Assembly: GCA_016215605.1 (NCBI GenBank)
Contig: JACRJB010000027.1
Location: forward strand, 1 to 61,132
DNA from: Rhodopseudomonas palustris
GTDB taxonomy: Bacteria > Pseudomonadota > Alphaproteobacteria > Rhizobiales > Xanthobacteraceae
Reading direction: 5' to 3'
DNA length: 61,132 nt
In this document: one piece after another, positions 6,104 to 25,592 of the stretch
Layout: each line of letters opens with the position of its first letter
Position numbering within the stretch: position 1 is the stretch's first letter
The notes under the pieces: model-generated
The model's input: only the letters and a program-made list of their open reading frames with translations
What the model was told of the DNA's origin: nothing
Database searches by the model: none
Translations under genes and position numbers: made by a program

Positions 6104-6430
6104 ATGACGATCATGCCCTGCAGACCAAAGGCGGCTGTTGTCGTCGCAACGATAGCGGTCATCGGTATTGCGTTCGTGAGCGCACCTGTCTCCGCTGCGC
6201 CGTGGCGGGCCGACGAGGGCAATACCCGCGGCTGGATGCTGATGTCGCCGCAGGAGCGTATCGAGCATCAGGCACGGGTGCGCGGCTTCACCGACTACGA
6301 TACCTGCGCGGCCTATCGCGCCGAACACCATGCGCTGATGATGCAGCGTGCGCGCGAACGCGGCCTCGATCTGCCGGGCAGCCACTGGGATTTCTGCAGC
6401 CGCCTGAAGCGCGGCGCGCCGCGGGATTGA
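6104..6430 (+). CDS. Small exported protein, unknown function
   Basis: A 108-residue protein with a signal peptide (MTIMPCRPKAAVVVATIAVI..., cleavage near APVSAAP) and a mature part of about 75 residues with two cysteines (DTCAAYR and WDFCSRL) and a His/Met/Arg-rich middle (HHALMMQRARER). The Met at 6104 gives a compact signal peptide; a Met six codons earlier is possible. Four bases separate it from the ferric-reductase-like gene, so the two are probably co-transcribed. The two cysteines could form a disulfide. I do not recognise a family; a role in periplasmic metal handling is only suggested by the neighbour. Confidence 0.7.
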   Translation: MTIMPCRPKAAVVVATIAVIGIAFVSAPVSAAPWRADEGNTRGWMLMSPQERIEHQARVRGFTDYDTCAAYRAEHHALMMQRARERGLDLPGSHWDFCSRLKRGAPRD

Positions 6431-6434
6431 GTCG

Positions 6435-7700
6435 GTGGCAATCTCCGCCTCGACGCTGCAACGCTGGTCGATCCCGCTGCTCGCCTTCGCGGTGCCGCTC
6501 GGTTTCGTGGTGTGGGCGTTTCCGACCGGGCTCGCGCCGCTCCGCGCCGCCGGCATCGTCACCGGCTGGCTCGGCTGCGGACTGCTGCTGGTCAGCCTGC
6601 TGCTGATGTTGCGCGAGCCGCGGCTCGCCTTCTGGCTTGGCGGGCTGGAGCGGATGTATCGCTGGCATCACCTCACCGGCGTCGCCGCCTATGTGCTGCT
6701 GCTGCTGCACCCGCTGGCGCTGGCGGCCAACGCCTGGCCGGCGTCGCGGTTGCTCGCCTGGCAGACGTTGTCGCCGGTCACCGAAAGCTGGCCGGTGTGG
6801 TCGGGCTGGCTTGGCCTGCTGCTGTTGATGGTCGGCCTCGCCACCACCTTCATCCCCGGCATCCGCTACGGCGTCTGGCGCTGGCTGCACGCGTTGCTCG
6901 GACTCGGCGTGGTGGTCGGGCTGCTGCATCTGATCCTGCTCGGCATCGACGAGCCGGTGTTGCCGATCCTCGCGGTGGCGACGGCGATCCTCGGCTGGCG
7001 GCTGCTGCGCGGCGACCTTGGTCTCGCGGCGCGGCCCTATGTGGTCGCCGCGGCGCGCCGGCTGACCGGGCAGGCGGTCGAGATCGAGCTGCGTCCACTG
7101 GCCGATCCGGTCGCCGTGACCCCGGGCCAGTTCGTGCTGGTCGCCTTCGCGCACGGCCCGGTCTATCGCGGCTGCGGCGAATTCCATCCCTTCACCATCA
7201 GTGCGATCGATCGCGACGGCGCGCTGCGTCTCGCCGTCAAGGCGCTCGGCGATTGCACGCGGCGGATGCTGTCGATCGAGCCTGGCGTGGCAGCGCGGGT
7301 GATCGGCGGCTTCGGCGGTCTGCTCGGCAATGCCGGCGCAGCGCCGCAATTGTGGATCGCCGGCGGCATCGGCGTCACCCCGTTCGTGGCCCTGCTCAAT
7401 GACGGCCCGCTGCTCCGCCCGGTGCGGCTGGTGTATCTCTATCGCCGCGAGGACGACGCCACCTATCTGTCGGAACTGCGCGCGATCGCGGCGTCCGATC
7501 CGCGTCTCACGCTGCAGGCGATCGCCACCGGCAACGATCTGCCCGATCTCGACCGTCTGCTGCCCGCCGCCAGCGATCTGTCAGGCGTCGAGTGCTATCT
7601 GTGCGGGCCCGCTGGCCTCGTCGCCGCGCTGCAGCGGGCGCTCGGCGCGCGCGGCGTCGCCGCGCAGCACATCCACTTCGAAAATTTCGAGTTCAGATGA
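6435..7700 (+). CDS. Ferric-reductase-like transmembrane flavocytochrome
   Basis: 421 residues. The N-terminal half has about six membrane helices with two histidine pairs on facing helices (YRWHHLTGVAAYVLLLLHP and WRWLHALLGLGVVVGLLHL), the bis-heme arrangement of the ferric reductase/NOX superfamily. The C-terminal half is a ferredoxin-NADP reductase-like module with FAD motif HPFTIS (about 254-259) and nucleotide-binding GGIGVTPF (about 310-317), then a CGPAGLV-type segment. It moves electrons from cytoplasmic NAD(P)H across the membrane to a periplasmic acceptor such as ferric chelates or oxygen. The GTG start lies four bases after the preceding gene, and the stop overlaps the next gene's ATG, so this is the middle gene of a three-gene unit. 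Confidence 0.88.
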   Translation: MAISASTLQRWSIPLLAFAVPLGFVVWAFPTGLAPLRAAGIVTGWLGCGLLLVSLLLMLREPRLAFWLGGLERMYRWHHLTGVAAYVLLLLHPLALAANAWPASRLLAWQTLSPVTESWPVWSGWLGLLLLMVGLATTFIPGIRYGVWRWLHALLGLGVVVGLLHLILLGIDEPVLPILAVATAILGWRLLRGDLGLAARPYVVAAARRLTGQAVEIELRPLADPVAVTPGQFVLVAFAHGPVYRGCGEFHPFTISAIDRDGALRLAVKALGDCTRRMLSIEPGVAARVIGGFGGLLGNAGAAPQLWIAGGIGVTPFVALLNDGPLLRPVRLVYLYRREDDATYLSELRAIAASDPRLTLQAIATGNDLPDLDRLLPAASDLSGVECYLCGPAGLVAALQRALGARGVAAQHIHFENFEFR

Positions 7701-18959: not shown

Positions 18960-19100
18960 CGGGTTCTCCGGACAGGGGCGCCGGAAAATGCCGCTACGTG
19001 TTTGTCACGCGTATGACGGTGGCCGAGGTGCGGTGATTTGGCACGTGTGCGTCGTCACCGCGCGTGGCGTGCATCGCGCTCACCCCGAACCGCAGCGCGC

Positions 19101-19370
19101 TCCCTCTCCCGCGTGCGGGAGAGGGCTGGGGTGAGGGCGACGCAATCGCAGTGCCGGGGGGAGGTCAACGCGAGCGCAGTGCCTGGGGACCCCCACCCCC
19201 GACCCCTCCCCGCAAGGGGGAGGGGAGTAGAGCACAGCGCGCTCCCTCTCCCGCTTGCGGGAGAGGGTTGGGGTGAGGGGGCCCCAAGCAGTGAGTCAGC
19301 GACTCGCGGAGAGGAGGGCCCTCACCCGGATCGCTGCGCGATCCGACCTCCCCCGCAAGCGGGGGAGGTT
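19101..19370. repeat. Cluster of GC-rich palindromic repeats
   Basis: The 435-bp gap between ppk2 and the decarboxylase gene holds four elements: two CCCTCTCCCGC...GCGGGAGAGGG hairpins followed by TGGGGTGAGGG (19101-19139, 19242-19282), one ACCCCTCCCCGCAAGGGGGAGGGG element (19187-19228) and one CCGGATCGCTGCGCGATCC / CTCCCCCGCAAGCGGGGGAG element (19319-19370). No gene is seen. The same families recur across the window. Confidence 0.8.
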
Positions 19371-19394
19371 GCGTTGTGCGTGCGGCGCGGGTGA

Positions 19395-20858
19395 TCAGCC
19401 CGCCCGGGCGTTGCCGAATTTCAGCACGGCGTCGACCATCCGATCCACATCCGCGAAGGTCGTGCGATGGTTGACGATGGCGGCGCGGATCGCGAGGCGG
19501 CCGTCGATCGTGGTCGAGGACGGCGCGGCGATCCCGGACTCGTGGATGTCGGCGACGATCTCGGCGTTGAGCGCGTCGGCGTCGGTTCCGTCCGGTGCAC
19601 GATAGCGGAAGCAGACGATGTTCAGCGTCACCGGCGCCAGCATTTCGAGTTGCGGCTCGCGCTGCACGCGTGCTTCGAGATGCCGCGCCACCGCGCACGT
19701 GTGGGCGATCATCGCGCCCAGCCGATCGGCGCCGTAGGTCTTCAGCGTGAACCAGGTCTTCAGCGCCCGGAATCCGCGCGACAGATCCGGGCCGAAATCG
19801 CATGGCCAGGGCGAGCCGCCGGCGAGGCCGCGGGTCTCGCGGCGCAGATAGGCCGCGGGCGCCGCGAAGGTCGCGCGGTGCTGCTCGCCGTCACGCACCA
19901 TCAGGAAGCCGGCGTCGTAGTTCACCTGGCCCCATTTATGGAAATCCAGCGCCACCGTATCCGCTTCGCTCAGTCCGGCGAGCTTCGGCGCGATCTCCGG
20001 CGACAGCATGCCGAGCGAGCCGTAGGCGCCGTCGACGTGGAACCACAGCCCTTCGTCGCGGCACAGCGCAGCGAGCGCGGCGAGATCGTCGATCGCGCCG
20101 GTGTCGACGGTGCCGGCCGAGCCGGTGACCAGGAACGGCTTGAATCCCGCGGCGCGGTCCTCGGCGATGCGCCGGCGCAGCGCCGCGATGTCGATGCGGT
20201 GCGCGGCGTCGAACGGAATCCGCCGCAGCGCGCCGCGTCCGAGCCCGGCGAGATCGGCGGCCTGCACCACGCAGCCGTGTGCCGCCGCCGAGGCGTAGGC
20301 GGTCAGCGGCTCGCCGGCGAGCCCGCCCTCGCGGACCTGCGGGCCGAGCGCGGCGGTGCGGGCGACCAGCAGCGCCATGAAATTCGCCATCGACGAGCCG
20401 GTGACGAACACGCCGCTCGCGGTTTGCGGAAAGCCGAACAATTCGCGCACCCAGCGCACGATCTGGCGCTCGACCTCGATGCCGATGTGATCGCGGCCGC
20501 CGCAATTGGCGTTCAGCCCCGCCGCCAGCATCTCGGCCAGCATGCCGACCGCGGTGCCGCCGCCATGCACCCAGCCCATGAAACCCGGATGCACATTGCC
20601 GGTCGCATAGGGCGCGATGTCGTCGGTGAACGTCCGGTACGCCTCGCCGAGTGGTGTCTCGCCGCGCGGTAGCGTCTCGCTGAAGCGCGCGCGGATCTCG
20701 GGCGGAATCGGTTGCCACACCGGGCGGTCGCGCACCTCGGCGATATGATCGATCATGTCGTCGAGCATGCGATGCGCGTCGGCGCGCAGCGCGTCCCAGT
20801 CGTCGGGATCGAGGCTCGACGCGCCGGCATGCCCGCCGGCGCGCTCCGTCTTCGTCAC
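19395..20858 (-). CDS. Group II PLP-dependent amino acid decarboxylase
   Basis: 487 residues, the length of aromatic-amino-acid/glutamate-decarboxylase-type enzymes (PF00282). The cofactor site is clear: HPGFMGWVHGGGTAVGM, TGSSMANFMALLVAR (phosphate binding), H194 stacking on the ring, HVDGAYGS with D276, and the Schiff-base lysine K308 in DFHKWGQVNYD. The reaction is decarboxylation of an amino acid or amino-acid-like substrate to an amine, although some members instead release aldehydes. The GTG start overlaps the stop of the ATP-grasp gene by four bases, so it is the third gene of a coupled operon. The substrate cannot be read from the sequence. Confidence 0.88.
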   Translation of the reverse strand: MTKTERAGGHAGASSLDPDDWDALRADAHRMLDDMIDHIAEVRDRPVWQPIPPEIRARFSETLPRGETPLGEAYRTFTDDIAPYATGNVHPGFMGWVHGGGTAVGMLAEMLAAGLNANCGGRDHIGIEVERQIVRWVRELFGFPQTASGVFVTGSSMANFMALLVARTAALGPQVREGGLAGEPLTAYASAAAHGCVVQAADLAGLGRGALRRIPFDAAHRIDIAALRRRIAEDRAAGFKPFLVTGSAGTVDTGAIDDLAALAALCRDEGLWFHVDGAYGSLGMLSPEIAPKLAGLSEADTVALDFHKWGQVNYDAGFLMVRDGEQHRATFAAPAAYLRRETRGLAGGSPWPCDFGPDLSRGFRALKTWFTLKTYGADRLGAMIAHTCAVARHLEARVQREPQLEMLAPVTLNIVCFRYRAPDGTDADALNAEIVADIHESGIAAPSSTTIDGRLAIRAAIVNHRTTFADVDRMVDAVLKFGNARAG

Positions 20859-22102
20859 GCGACGCCCTGCATTCGCGACGCCGCGCGGCGCTCCAGCATC
20901 GCGGCGAACGCATCGAAGATCTTGACCATCTGCGGCGGCTTGTAGGGATACAGCTCCGGGCTGTCCATGTTGTGGACCACCGCGGTGTTGTCGATCTCGA
21001 ACACCAGCAGATCGCCGGCCGGCGTCTGCGCGCAGTCGATGGTGAAGTAGTCGAGGCCGATCCGCTCGATCATGCCGTCCAGCGCGGTGCGATGCCGCCG
21101 CGCGAAGCCGAAGTCGAAGGTGTGGAAGAACGCCGCCTCTTCGAGCCGCTTGCTGGCGCTCTGCGCCATCCCGGCGTTGAGGTACCAGATGTCCCAGCGG
21201 TCGGCGATCGCCATGTGGCACGCATACGGCTTGCCGTCGATCACGACGATCCGGTATTTGCGAAACAGCCCGTCGTCGCTGGCGTAGTCGACATAGCGCG
21301 CGATGAAGAATTCCGCCTCCTGCCGCTCGGCCAGATAGGCGGCGAGCGCGGCGTCGTTCTCGATCCGCGCCAGGCCGAAGCCGGCATGCGAACCGCGCGG
21401 CCGTGCGATGATCGGGTAGACGGCGCCCTGGGCGACCTCGGCGAGCGCCGCAGGGCCCGCCGCCACCGCGGCGAGCGCATCGCGGGCGACCGGAATGGTG
21501 GCGGGAATATCGAGCCCGTCGACGTCGCCGATCAGCCGGTACAGCTTGTCGCGGTCGAGATGGCCGATCAGCGCCGGCGGGTTGAGCAGCGGCGCCGGCC
21601 AACTCGCCGCATGCGCCGCGATCTTGGCGAGCGCGCCGCGACATTCCTCGGAGTCGGACGCGATCACGATGGCGAGGTCGTGCGCCGGCAACGGATCGGG
21701 CAGCGGCACGCCGTCGACGACATACAGCGTCACGAGTTCGATCCCGGAGCTCTCCAGCAGAAATTCGATCGGCGTGTTGCCGCCCATGTCGATGTCTGCG
21801 GCGAGCGCCAGCACGCGCATCCGCGGCTGCGCGCTGGCGCAGGGCGAGCGGAACAATTGATGCTGCGCCAGCGTCTCGGTCTGCACCGAGAGGCCGGCCT
21901 GCTTGTGGCCGAACAATTGCGTGATCAGGGCGAGGTCGAGCTGTTCGCCAGCGGTGGCGGTGCCGGCGTCGACGTTGCTCATCAGCTCCTGCCACAGCGG
22001 AAACAGGTTCTCGCCGTCGAACGCCCGTTTGGTCAGGCGCGCGAAGCCGATCCGGTCGGCGATCGGTTGCGGGGCGGGTGGCTGGTGCGTCTCAGTCGGC
22101 AT
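20855..22102 (-). CDS. ATP-grasp ligase, RimK/glutathione-synthetase-like, unknown substrate
   Basis: 415 residues. An N-terminal helical region (1-93) precedes a pre-ATP-grasp Rossmann-like domain (MRVLALAADIDMGGNTPIEFLLE, about 95-170) and an ATP-grasp fold (about 180-400). Likely nucleotide and Mg contacts are RPRGSHAGFGLARIEN (234-249), EFFIARYVDY, and D356, E369 and N372 in FTIDC and LVFEIDN. Enzymes of this fold join a carboxylate, through an acyl-phosphate, to an amine or thiol. Its gene overlaps the upstream PLP enzyme gene by 11 bases and the downstream decarboxylase by four. The sequence is not one of the standard glutathione, RimK or D-Ala ligases. Confidence 0.8.
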   Translation of the reverse strand: MPTETHQPPAPQPIADRIGFARLTKRAFDGENLFPLWQELMSNVDAGTATAGEQLDLALITQLFGHKQAGLSVQTETLAQHQLFRSPCASAQPRMRVLALAADIDMGGNTPIEFLLESSGIELVTLYVVDGVPLPDPLPAHDLAIVIASDSEECRGALAKIAAHAASWPAPLLNPPALIGHLDRDKLYRLIGDVDGLDIPATIPVARDALAAVAAGPAALAEVAQGAVYPIIARPRGSHAGFGLARIENDAALAAYLAERQEAEFFIARYVDYASDDGLFRKYRIVVIDGKPYACHMAIADRWDIWYLNAGMAQSASKRLEEAAFFHTFDFGFARRHRTALDGMIERIGLDYFTIDCAQTPAGDLLVFEIDNTAVVHNMDSPELYPYKPPQMVKIFDAFAAMLERRAASRMQGVA

Positions 22103-23690
22103 GTTGGTCCTTGGCGAGTGCGGTAGCGTCGGGCTGCGGCAGCAGCGCGTGGATTCGAGCGATCACGATCGCGGCGTCGGCGAGAATGTGGTCGAGCGCG
22201 CCGTGGGCGAGATCGGGATGCGTCGCCCAGGCGTCGACGACGTGGCGGGCGCTGATGCAGATCCGCAGCGCGGCGGCGGCATCGTCGCCAGCGCCGCCCC
22301 AGCCGACCGGCTGTCCGATCAGGCACGGCGCGCCCTGCGTGTCGTCGCGCAGCGCAATGGAGATCGCGCGGCATTGCGCCAGCGACAGCGGCGCGCCACA
22401 GGGTTCGGCCGTGAAGGCGAAGATCGAGGGAGAGGCGAATTCGTCGCCGCGCTCCGGATGCGGCTGCGGCGGCAGCAGCGTCAACGCCGGCGACGCGCTG
22501 ATCAGCCTGGCGATGCCGTCGCCGAGCGTGCGCAGCGCGGCGCGGCGGAAGGCCTCGGGCACGGCGGCGTAGGCGCGGATTTCCTCCAGCGCCGCTTCCC
22601 AGCGCAGCCATTGGCCGAAATTCGGCGCCGCCGAGAATTGCGCGCGCAAGCCGCGCCAGCGCATCGGCCAGTCGCTGCGGCCGGCATAGTCGGCGAGGCC
22701 CGGCGCGAGTTGCTTCAGCGCGCCGATCGCATGGCTCAGCCGCGGTGGCACCAGCAGCGCGCCGCTGAACGGCGGGCCGGCGTAGAATTTCGAGCCCGTC
22801 AGCAGCACCAGATCGCCGCGGGCGAGGCAGCGCGCAATCCGGCTGCGGCCGAGCCGCATCTGGCAGGCGTCGACCACGATCTGCACCCGGCCGGGCCAGC
22901 GCGCCGCGATCTCGTCGGCGCAGCGGTCGCTCGGCGCCTGCAGGCCGAGCTTGGAGCAGTCCATCACTTCGAGCATCACCCGCGCGCCCTGGGCGATCAG
23001 CGACTCCACCGTCTCCAGCACCTCGGCGTCGATCGCCGAGGGCGCGCGCAGCCGGCCGTCGGCCTCGCGCAGCCGCAGCGCGATGCTGCGCACCGGGCCG
23101 AGCCCGCTCACCGGCGCGCCTTTGGCCACCTTGCAGTCGTTGGTGCTGCGGTCGCTGAAATGTTGGCCGCGCGCGGTGTGCGCGGTGCCGGTGCCGGTCT
23201 GGTCGGCGGCGACGATCAGCGTCACCACCTCGCCGCCGAGCAGCGCGCGGCTCAGCGCCAGCGCCTGCAATTGCGCGTCGGTGCCGGACGCCGAGAACAC
23301 CAACTCGGCGCCGGAACGCTCGAGGCCGAGCAGGGCTTTCAGTTCGTCGCGCATCGCCTCGACCCGGGCGTCGAAGCACTCGATCAATCCGTGCAGCATC
23401 GCCGACGACATCAGCGCGGTGCGGGCGCGCTCGGCCGCCTCGTAGCCGCGCTCGGAGATCGTGGTCGCGGTGCAGGACGAGAAGCTCGGAATCTCGGGGG
23501 TGGGGACCGGGCTGCAGCCATAGGCGTTGCGGCCGGTGGCCCGATCGATGTCGAGCCGCGCATCGCCGCCGCAGGTCAGCAGCTGTTCGAGCGGGGCGAA
23601 CAATTCGCGCAGCGGCGAGGGGGTGCGAAGCCCGGTTTCGGTCTGGGCCCGGCGGTCGACGGCTGTGCGCAAGCTCCCGGCGTTCGACAT
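22092..23690 (-). CDS. Class-V-aminotransferase-like PLP enzyme, unknown reaction
   Basis: 532 residues, longer than most cysteine desulfurases (about 400). The fold-type I signature is there: SGTDA (135-139) for the cofactor phosphate, VVDACQMRLG with D274 and Q277 as in the VDAAQ of IscS/SufS, and the Schiff-base lysine K301 in LLTGSKFYAGPPFSGALLV, parallel to GHKxYGPKG of desulfurases. Thirteen or more cysteines are scattered, but I see no SufS/IscS catalytic loop. It may be a lyase, transaminase or desulfurase acting on the precursor later handled by the ATP-grasp ligase and the decarboxylase. It is the first gene of the operon; its promoter lies between 23690 and the terminator at 23846. 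Confidence 0.75.
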   Translation of the reverse strand: MSNAGSLRTAVDRRAQTETGLRTPSPLRELFAPLEQLLTCGGDARLDIDRATGRNAYGCSPVPTPEIPSFSSCTATTISERGYEAAERARTALMSSAMLHGLIECFDARVEAMRDELKALLGLERSGAELVFSASGTDAQLQALALSRALLGGEVVTLIVAADQTGTGTAHTARGQHFSDRSTNDCKVAKGAPVSGLGPVRSIALRLREADGRLRAPSAIDAEVLETVESLIAQGARVMLEVMDCSKLGLQAPSDRCADEIAARWPGRVQIVVDACQMRLGRSRIARCLARGDLVLLTGSKFYAGPPFSGALLVPPRLSHAIGALKQLAPGLADYAGRSDWPMRWRGLRAQFSAAPNFGQWLRWEAALEEIRAYAAVPEAFRRAALRTLGDGIARLISASPALTLLPPQPHPERGDEFASPSIFAFTAEPCGAPLSLAQCRAISIALRDDTQGAPCLIGQPVGWGGAGDDAAAALRICISARHVVDAWATHPDLAHGALDHILADAAIVIARIHALLPQPDATALAKDQHAD

Positions 23691-23845: not shown

Positions 23846-23877
23846 AAAAAGAGGCCGGCGCCTTGCGGGCGCCGGCC
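23846..23877 (-). terminator. Intrinsic terminator of the chemoreceptor gene
   Basis: Read leftwards, a perfect 10-bp stem GGCCGGCGCC/GGCGCCGGCC (23877-23868 with 23862-23853) with a 5-base loop is followed by TCTTTTT. It ends 24 bases after the chemoreceptor stop and separates it from the three-gene operon downstream. Confidence 0.85.
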
Positions 23878-23900: not shown

Positions 23901-25592
23901 TCAGGCGGCGCGGACGGTGTCGAGGAACTTCGACACTTCGAGCTTCAGCCGGCTGCTTTCCTGCGACAGCGATTTCGCCGCGGACAGCACCTGGCTCGAC
24001 GCCGAGCCGGTCTCGGTGGCGCCGCGCTGCACGTCGATGATGTTGACCGACACCTGCTGGGTGCCGATCGCCGCCTGCTGGACGTTGCGCGAAATCTCCT
24101 GCGTCGCCGCGCCCTGTTCCTCGACCGCCGAGGCGATGGTCGAGGAAATCTCCGACATCCGCCCGATGGTGCCGCCGATCTCCTTGATCGCCGTCACCGA
24201 CTGGTCGGTCGCGCTCTGGATGCCGTTGATCTGCAGGGTGATCTCGCCGGTGGCCTTGGCGGTCTGCTCGGCCAGCGCCTTCACTTCGCTCGCCACCACC
24301 GCGAAGCCGCGGCCCGCTTCGCCGGCGCGCGCCGCCTCGATCGTCGCGTTGAGCGCCAGCAGATTGGTCTGGCCGGCGATGGTGCTGATCAGTTCGACCA
24401 CGTCGCCGATCCGCGCCGCCGCCTTGGCGAGTTCCTCGACCCGGCCATTGGTGGCGCGGGCCTGCTCGACCGCCTCGTGCGCGATCCGCGCGGATTCCTG
24501 CACCTGGCGGCTGATCTCGTTGACCGACGAACTCATCTCCTCGGTCGCCGACGCCACCGACTGGACGTTGGTGGAGGCTTCTTCGGACGCCGCGGTCACC
24601 ATGGTGGCGAGATGCTGCGAGCGTTCCGCGGTCGTGGTCAGCGTCGTCGCCGAGGCTTCCAGCTCGTGCGAAGCCGACGACACCGTTTCGACGATCTCGC
24701 CGATCGCGCGTTCGAAATCACCAGCGAGCCGGTTGGTGTCGGCCTTGCGCTGCGCGGCGGCACGGGCTTCGACCTCGGATTGCTCGGCCTCGAGCCGCTG
24801 GCGTTCGATCGCGTTGTGTTTGAACACCTCGACCGCGCCGGCCATGTCGCCGATCTCGTCGCGTCGCCCGATGCCCGGAATCTCGGTGTTGAGCCGGCCG
24901 GCGGCCAATGCCTTCATCGCGGAGGTGATCGCATGGATCGGCCGGGTGATGCCGTTCGCGACCACGACCGACACCACGGCGATGATCAGCAGCACGATCG
25001 CCGCGGCGATCAGCAATCGCTGCGTCGCGCTCCAGGTCTGGGCCTCGAGGTCGTCGATATACACGCCGGTGCCGATCAGCCAGCCCCACGGCGTGAAGCC
25101 GGCGACATGGGTCAGCTTCGGATAGGGCTTGTCGGCACCCGGCTTCGGCCACGCGTAGTCGACGTAGCCGCTGCCGTTGCGGCGGACGATGTCGACCATC
25201 TCGGTGAACAACGGCTTGCCGTTGGGGTCGCGGGTGTTGGTCTGGTCCTGCCCGATCAACTGCGTCGCGATCGGATGCATCAGCATCCTGCTCTGCATGT
25301 CGGTGATGAAGAAGTACTCCTTGCCGCCGTAACGCAGCTTGGAGATCCGCGACAGCGCCCGCTTCTGCGCCTCGTCGGCCTTGAGCTCGCCGCGCTGCGC
25401 GGCGTCGTGCTCGTCCTTGACGATCGCGATCGCGAGATCGGTGAGGTTCCGGAGTTCGATCTGCTTCTGCTGTTTCAGGCCCCAGCCGATTTCCTGCGAG
25501 GCCATGAAGGTCGTTCCCAGCAGCCCGAGGAAACCGAGGCCGATCAGCAGGTAGATCCGGCGGCCGATGGTCATGTGCAGTTTCGATAGCAT
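23901..25592 (-). CDS. Methyl-accepting chemotaxis protein (Cache-HAMP-MA)
   Basis: 563 residues. TM1 at about 12-30, a periplasmic single-Cache domain (about 40-185, with [18 protein letters not shown] and [12 protein letters not shown]), TM2 at about 190-210, HAMP to about 265, then the cytoplasmic methyl-accepting domain with hairpin tip [43 protein letters not shown]. It signals to CheA/CheW; the ligand is probably a small carboxylate, as for other bacterial sCache domains. There is no C-terminal CheR-binding pentapeptide. A strong terminator follows. Confidence 0.93.

Follow-up and report, generated by a model that had tools for sequence, protein, structure and literature searches.

What do three overlapping enzyme genes of Rhodopseudomonas palustris produce, and on what does their product act? 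The genes occupy positions 19395-23690 of contig JACRJB010000027.1 (assembly GCA_016215605.1), whose 61,132 nucleotides constitute the window analysed here. In order of transcription, they encode P1, a fold-type I pyridoxal phosphate (PLP) enzyme with class V-like features; P2, a putative ATP-grasp ligase; and P3, a group II PLP decarboxylase. Many genomes share these three genes as a conserved module, whose probable task is to produce an amine and couple it to an acid. In three lineages the module is accompanied by genes of the flagellar filament, and we tentatively favour the filament, or the glycan that it carries, as the acceptor.

Organization of the three-gene locus

All three genes lie on the minus strand. 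P1 (22092-23690; ATG start, 532 residues) and P2 (20855-22102; ATG start, 415 residues) each represent an apparently uncurated family, the latter with a short N-terminal part resembling tetratricopeptide repeats (TPRs), and P3 (19395-20858; 487 residues) starts at a GTG codon. The end of P1 overlaps the start of P2 by 11 bases (22092-22102), and the stop codon of P2 overlaps the start of P3 by four bases of sequence GTGA (20855-20858). These coordinates and overlaps agree exactly with those given in an earlier note, which was made from the letters of the window. The key residues that it listed, K301 and D274 of P1, D356 and E369 of P2, and K308, D276 and H194 of P3, proved to be conserved in at least 93% of the chosen sequences (26 for P1, 41 for P2 and 27 for P3), which reach distant proteobacterial families. 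The P1-P2-P3 arrangement goes beyond chance, because the trio is conserved elsewhere.

Conservation of the trio across genomes

Of the 129 confirmed relatives of P2, the best 80 were kept and yielded 77 loci, 10 from Rhodopseudomonas and 67 of a Bradyrhizobium type. The latter are distributed over 66 contigs, nearly all titled Bradyrhizobium, and some of them end at contig edges. P1, P2 and P3 are all present in the Rhodopseudomonas loci (10/10); in the Bradyrhizobium-type loci, P2 is accompanied by P1 in 58 of 67, by P3 in 63 of 67 and by both in 55 of 67; strains of B. diazoefficiens and B. japonicum are represented in this set. Named strains with the trio include R. palustris 2.1.18 and XCP, the P1 match of XCP being in two parts, and B. 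diazoefficiens SZCCT0138. Within the genus of the window, P1 was found in 15 of 16 genomes, its own included, and not in G007 (92% complete); P2 was found in seven of the nine genomes of genus g47, which is taken to be Bradyrhizobium. A restriction of P1 to its own genus, suggested by a search that found it in 15 of 61 relatives and in none of the 45 outside that genus, was overturned by wider searches that found it elsewhere.

Outside these two groups, 32 distant loci with a P2 match were collected, 26 from genomes and six from plasmids. Weaker hits of the P2 profile were left out, many of them TPR plus ATP-grasp proteins (e.g. L129-L138, L189, L190, L230 and L232-L234), together with the P2 match of genome G394 (L130), the hits G635 and G772, and a seventh plasmid hit (H7). 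Because gene calls were wrong at some loci (e.g. L148, L151 and L177), the scores of P1, P2 and P3 were taken anew from six-frame open reading frames (ORFs). In total, 18 of the 32 loci possess all three genes on one strand, three possess P2 and P3, two possess P1 and P2, and nine possess P2 only. One of the P2-P3 loci (L123) has merely a stub of P3 at the contig end, and the P2-only loci include a contig-end fragment (L231) and a split P2 (L203). The 18 complete loci include those of Rhizobium tumorigenes, Rhizobium rhododendri and nine genomes outside the class of the window; as several of them share a genus or family, they do not amount to 18 independent cases. The Rhizobium tumorigenes record annotates its trio as a TPR protein, a hypothetical protein and a pyridoxal-dependent decarboxylase. 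Gene order varies among the distant loci (P1-P2-P3, P3-P2-P1, P2-P1-P3 and P2-P3-P1), and a single fusion protein of 884 residues in L126 combines the decarboxylase with the ATP-grasp domain. Beside P1 and the fused gene, L126 also encodes (6259-7668) a Ferritin-like protein (PF12902) that looks exported.

Further analysis of a draw of 385 alphaproteobacterial genomes found the P2 profile in 22, the P1 profile in six and both in five (Fisher p 2.2e-6, with profiles built from the genera of two of these five). Moreover, five genomes of family f86 (G810, G811, G814, G816 and G836) carry two or three of the trio genes together. One could still argue that there is no joint pathway, and that three unrelated enzymes merely share an operon. 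P2 indeed stands without P1 or P3 in nine of the 32 distant loci, and on a plasmid of Paraburkholderia FT54 (L202, 8983-11348) a P2 relative is paired instead with a gene for a SerC-type phosphoserine transaminase, which it overlaps by four bases; the latter arrangement hints that the second PLP enzyme may be exchangeable. However, 18 of the 32 distant loci retain the whole trio on a single strand although the gene order differs, and in one of the 18 two of the genes are fused, which makes an accidental operon very improbable. The conservation across genera fits a dedicated pathway: the orthologues are not scattered singly, and the three genes do not all match a characterised pathway. The dedicated, unassigned biosynthetic system that the earlier note had recognized is thus upheld, since the trio stays together in changed orders and in one fusion, and since P1 and P2 fall below the curated cut-offs.

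Sequence features of the three enzymes

P3 is a group II PLP decarboxylase by its match to PF00282, with an E-value of 1.4e-58 and a score of 198.9 bits against a gathering cut-off of 27, and the catalytic residues K308, D276 and H194 are conserved. It matches 30 solved structures at an E-value of 1e-10 or below, including tryptophan, DOPA, tyrosine, histidine and diaminobutyrate decarboxylases, and is the sole PF00282 match found in its own genome. Against the NCBIfam equivalogs, P3 reached the cut-off of none, scoring 189.1 of 900 bits for RhbB, 114.8 of 606.1 for PanP and 67.5 of 299.4 for MfnA. The known pathways represented by RhbB, PanP, MfnA, RimK and CofF were rejected for the trio, none being matched at its cut-off.

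P1 conserves the lysine K301 within a TGSK motif, D274 within DACQ, the residues SGT at 135-137, and R476. It gave no match to Pfam (up to an E-value of 1) or NCBIfam; the cut-off of PF00266, the family of class V aminotransferases and cysteine desulfurases, was not reached, and P1 was absent from the 20 PF00266 matches of its own genome (up to an E-value of 10). A profile built from 26 P1 relatives was aligned by hhalign to eight targets, among them a set of four class V enzymes. The class V set aligned best, with an E-value of 0.0042, compared to 0.021 for P3 and 0.2-0.68 for the six others, at a probability of only 8% because the alignments were small; single members of the set gave E-values of 0.011-0.2. 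In this 8% alignment the PLP motifs are in register. In addition, the P1 relative in L174 matched the cysteine desulfurase model TIGR01977 with an E-value of 0.0013 and 17.8 of 377 bits, far under the cut-off.

The order and type of the PLP motifs in P1 (SGT, VDACQ, TGSK and GALLVP) resemble those of PF00266 enzymes, whereas P1 reaches the cut-off of no model. The motif NNEIG is characteristic of cysteine desulfurases, and at its position P1 has DxSKxG. Moreover, the only cysteine conserved throughout the P1 family, C276, sits in DACQ rather than in a C-terminal catalytic loop, and among 26 sequences no family-wide cysteine follows it; C456 is nearly invariant in close relatives only. The class V label of the earlier note is consequently retained in a qualified form, favoured by the motifs and by the best of the eight profile alignments, and weakened by the low quality of that alignment and the lack of a library model at cut-off. 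In some Rhodopseudomonas genomes (L022, 4445-6002, and L015/L016), P1 matches as two gapped pieces with 70% and 53% identity and looks disrupted or locally divergent, although P2 and P3 of L022 match at full length. Another PLP and ATP-grasp pairing is seen in L188 (8431-11819), where the gene for a P1 relative of 475 residues has a divergent D-Ala ligase-type ATP-grasp gene (PF07478, E-value of 2.2e-11) on one side and a MobA-like nucleotidyltransferase gene on the other.

P2 scored above the cut-off of no Pfam or NCBIfam family, the best being the RimK family with an E-value of 0.038, and its relatives likewise missed the cut-offs of the curated ATP-grasp families (RimK and others). A profile of 24 relatives compared to solved structures placed D-Ala-D-Ala ligases on top (E-value of 0.0038), and distant relatives matched two ATP-grasp families, Synapsin_C (3.4e-4) and CPSase_L_D2 (0.003), both under the gathering score. 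The acidic metal-binding residues D356 and E369 are conserved in at least 93% of 41 sequences. An asparagine usually follows the metal-binding glutamate of ATP-grasp enzymes; in P2 it corresponds to N372, and it is variable in distant members. Taken at the level of sequence, these features qualify P2 as a member of the ATP-grasp superfamily. Its first 90 residues look TPR-like; the P2 relative in L177 matches TPR models weakly (E-value of 0.0056, below the cut-off), and other relatives, such as that of L131, have TPR arrays ahead of the same domain. An alphaproteobacterial contig (L137, 1-6250) carries three tandem TPR proteins, two of which combine TPR and ATP-grasp parts. On a plasmid of Cupriavidus EM10 (L203, 8986-10235), the P2 relative is split across two ORFs beside GT39, GtrA and GT2 genes.

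Flagellar neighbourhoods of the module

At least one of FlgK, FlgL, FlbT and flagellin is present in every Bradyrhizobium-type locus (67/67), and in all 56 loci in which both sides are visible, P2 has FlgL on one side and FlbT or flagellin on the other. Pfam analysis of the reference Bradyrhizobium-type proteins confirmed FlgK, FlbT and a flagellin bearing DUF1522; the label FlgL is our reading of a weak Flagellin_N match in combination with position. Of the 67 loci, 59 encode a small protein with a DADIGF motif and seven encode a TPR glycosyltransferase. The former, which gave no Pfam or NCBIfam hit, is read as a small glycosyltransferase. In L033, L037 and L055, genes for the TPR glycosyltransferase and the small glycosyltransferase are located between P2 and P3. 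Two P2 paralogues flank these glycosyltransferase genes in the flagellar clusters of L035, L037, L055 and L057; in L035, one paralogue adjoins P1 and the other P3.

Two further lineages display filament genes beside the module. In L125, from another alphaproteobacterial family, flagellin and FlbT are inserted between P1 and the P2-P3 pair. In L177, from outside the class of the window, flagellin, FlaG, FliD, a short ORF, FliS, P3, P2 and P1 follow one another on one strand, and the P2 stop codon and the likely P1 start codon share one base (TGATG). Genome G394, in which a P1 relative lies ~10 kb from a flagellin, was considered as a fourth lineage and not counted, because the intervening calls look like wrong-strand ORFs and the P2 match is on another contig.

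Several observations weigh against the filament as the target. The 61-kb window matches no marker profiles other than those of P1-P3, none of the 10 Rhodopseudomonas loci has a flagellar marker within ~6 kb of P2, and the flagellins are on another contig of the same genome and at least ~165 kb away in six other Rhodopseudomonas genomes. The small glycosyltransferase is absent from the seven Rhodopseudomonas genomes searched, that of the window included. Apart from L125 and L177, the distant trio loci show no flagellar neighbour by the Bradyrhizobium-derived markers, which are weak at such distance, and the five f86 genomes gave no marker match. As these markers had missed the flagellin of L177, the distant loci were judged by flagellin positions (for part of the genomes) and by Pfam, which found nothing flagellar among 19 chosen proteins near the trio in 14 distant loci apart from rpoN (L225), a general regulator. 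Of the 33 genomes matched by the P2 profile at whatever strength, 32 have a flagellin, as do 298 of 365 others, a weak link (p 0.013, without correction for relatedness), and G618 and G634 of genus g47 have flagellin without P2. Finally, P1 is missing from nine of the 67 Bradyrhizobium-type loci, one of which (L063) has it further along the contig (L064). Flagellin was found in all 29 chosen genomes (29/29); given a base rate of 330 of 398, its presence counts as weak evidence, and gene neighbourhood is the better evidence.

The weak flagellin correlation would suit a trio whose product is an intracellular or cofactor-like compound, made or modified without any connection to motility, the flagellar neighbourhoods being due to chance or hitch-hiking. 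Housekeeping neighbours at distant loci point the same way, namely surE (L174), tyrS (L175), leuA (L176), a division-cluster transpeptidase (L127) and glutamate synthase (L228). However, filament neighbourhoods were found in three of ~13 contexts, for which p is ~3e-4 at an assumed chance of 1% per context, where the contexts were counted by hand, the 1% is an estimate and a finer split into perhaps ~17 contexts would give a weaker p. The patchy distribution of P2, whose profile matches 22 of the 385 alphaproteobacterial genomes drawn, also speaks against a core cofactor. On balance, we regard an intracellular product as rather improbable. Given the flagellar setting in the 67 Bradyrhizobium-type loci and two further lineages, a decorated filament is no less likely than a free metabolite, and the small peptide-like or amine metabolite inferred in the earlier note is only one candidate product. 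The note missed the flagellar setting because the neighbourhoods of the relatives lie outside the window.

Setting of the trio in Rhodopseudomonas

In seven of the 10 Rhodopseudomonas loci and in four further genomes, the trio is flanked by a chemoreceptor gene on one side and by a PPK2 or ymdB-like gene on the other. At L150, apparently from the same genome as L025, the chemoreceptor is not upstream of the trio, and L147 has a second chemoreceptor match ahead of PPK2. In the window, the chemoreceptor gene (23901-25592) is upstream of P1, and a terminator-like stem with a T tract (23853-23877, minus strand) is situated between its stop codon and P1. The stem comprises 10 pairs, all G-C, and separates the trio from the chemoreceptor as previously noted. 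The region has two terminator-like sites compared to a shuffle mean of 2.6, i.e. no excess, so that the site at 23877-23853 draws its support from position and stem strength only. Downstream of P3, several alike G+C-rich inverted-repeat-like stretches of the CTCTCCCGC...GCGGGAGAG type (19060-19390) probably belong to an interspersed repeat family. The flagellar locus of the same genome has, between two flagellins, a gene matching the TPR glycosyltransferase (117 bits, perhaps from the TPR part).

The ligand of the chemoreceptor is possibly linked to the product of the trio, and the upstream position of the chemoreceptor gene in the seven Rhodopseudomonas loci and four further genomes speaks for a product that leaves the cell. 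On this view, the amide would be small and free, either an N-acyl amine or a pseudodipeptide, and would be exported to act as a signal, as a metallophore or in defence; where the module has flagellar neighbours, these would point to co-expression in motile cells rather than to a filament target. Transporter genes identified by Pfam adjoin the module in some loci (MFS_1 in L123, L124 and L227; EamA in L183), which keeps an exported free amide viable, and in most distant trio loci no flagellar neighbour was found. Pairs of a decarboxylase and a ligase make free amides elsewhere, as described for the tyrosine decarboxylase MfnA and the tyramine-glutamate ligase MfnD of methanofuran synthesis (PMC8141765). 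By contrast, no transporter is fixed with the module, and its position in the filament clusters of three lineages, with glycosyltransferases between P2 and P3 (L033, L037 and L055), would be unexpected for a free amide. We thus consider a free amide possible, and a less likely product than a decorated filament.

Proposed function of the module

We favour, as the foremost candidate though one still short of probable, that P3 and P1 supply an amine and that P2 attaches it as an amide to a carboxylate group, carried either by the flagellar filament or by its glycan. The sequences show that the three enzymes keep their active-site residues, that their genes are tightly coupled, widely conserved together and in one case fused, and that filament genes lie nearby in three lineages; the substrates, the order of reactions, the amide product and the filament target are what we infer. 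With a decarboxylase beside an ATP-grasp enzyme, the natural reading is that P3 gives the amine and P2 forms the amide. P3 would decarboxylate an amino acid to an amine, and P1, as a class V-type PLP enzyme, would make or reshape a second amino building block. P2 would use ATP to activate a carboxylate as an acyl phosphate and then join the amine; PMC8141765 describes most ATP-grasp enzymes as coupling a carboxylate to an amine or thiol via such an intermediate. The target might be an acid sugar in the glycan of flagellin, such as a uronic acid, or flagellin itself, and the TPR-like N-terminal part of P2 may help the enzyme to reach it. The module would act from inside the filament gene cluster in Bradyrhizobium, and from a separate site, on flagellin in trans, in Rhodopseudomonas.

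Neither the superfamilies nor the type of chemistry is without precedent; P1 and P2 fall below the cut-offs of the curated libraries searched. No published description of the trio was recognized in a literature search in which subscription journals were thinly covered, and the main text of a phylogenomic paper on Bradyrhizobium flagella (PMC6406911) contains neither the word ATP-grasp nor decarboxylase. Two of the three enzymes accordingly belong to families that these libraries leave unnamed, yet are widespread in Rhodopseudomonas and Bradyrhizobium. If the filament is the target, amide decoration would join the known flagellin modifications. More tentatively still, the trio may represent a new class of flagellar modification, in which a TPR-like ATP-grasp ligase attaches a decarboxylation-derived amine through an amide bond to flagellin or to the glycan on it, and which is carried as a portable three-gene cassette by several proteobacterial families. 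Plants can sense the flagellar surface, and such a modification would bear on how motile soil bacteria alter it.

Comparison with known systems

A place in or beside filament gene clusters, by which the trio was compared to flagellin modification systems, was found in all 67 Bradyrhizobium-type loci, L125 and L177, and was not found in the window, the Rhodopseudomonas loci or most distant loci. Two proteins of the Campylobacter jejuni HS:2 capsule cluster, Cj1436 and Cj1437, use PLP. According to PMC11800397, the amine comes either from phosphoserine, through the decarboxylase Cj1436, or from dihydroxyacetone phosphate, through the transaminase Cj1437. The C-terminal ATP-grasp domain of Cj1438, with a fold described in PMC11800379, then couples it to a glucuronic acid that is part of the existing capsule chain. 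The resemblance to the trio is in the supply of amines by a decarboxylase and a transaminase, the ATP-grasp-catalysed amide formation with a carboxylate, the single gene cluster and the surface structure as target (PMC11800397, PMC11800379 and PMC12409886). The TupA-like ATP-grasp domain of Campylobacter differs from P2 in sharing one protein with a glycosyltransferase, the target is a capsule rather than a flagellum, and there is an additional phosphatase, Cj1435; the comparison is one of published descriptions.

In the methanofuran pathway, a PLP tyrosine decarboxylase is likewise followed by an amide-forming ligase. P3, however, scores only 67.5 bits against the MfnA cut-off of 299.4, and the MfnA-MfnD pair has no class V enzyme and leads to a coenzyme (PMC8141765).

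Two further systems act on flagellins. In Shewanella oneidensis, deletion of sfmE, an ATP-grasp gene of the sfmABCDE cluster, shifts the mass of flagellin; of the five genes, a section title lists just the first four as needed for normal motility (PMC3765264). SfmE, with 412 residues, is similar to P2 as an ATP-grasp protein affecting flagellin mass, again by description. It differs in having an ATP-grasp_4 domain and in its partners, given in that paper as a NeuB-like synthase, a thiamine pyrophosphate enzyme, a reductase and a methyltransferase, with no PLP decarboxylase among them. Caulobacter FlmG, a flagellin glycosyltransferase described in PMC7591256, combines a TPR part that binds flagellins with a catalytic part, as some P2 relatives combine TPR arrays with an ATP-grasp domain (L131); its catalytic part is a glycosyltransferase rather than an ATP-grasp domain, and P2 has only a short TPR-like stretch, which stays below the cut-off. 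We propose that the trio works like these systems, and claim membership in none of them. Altogether, the precedents of Campylobacter, SfmE and FlmG lead us to rank a filament decorated through amide bonds ahead of a free amide that is exported.

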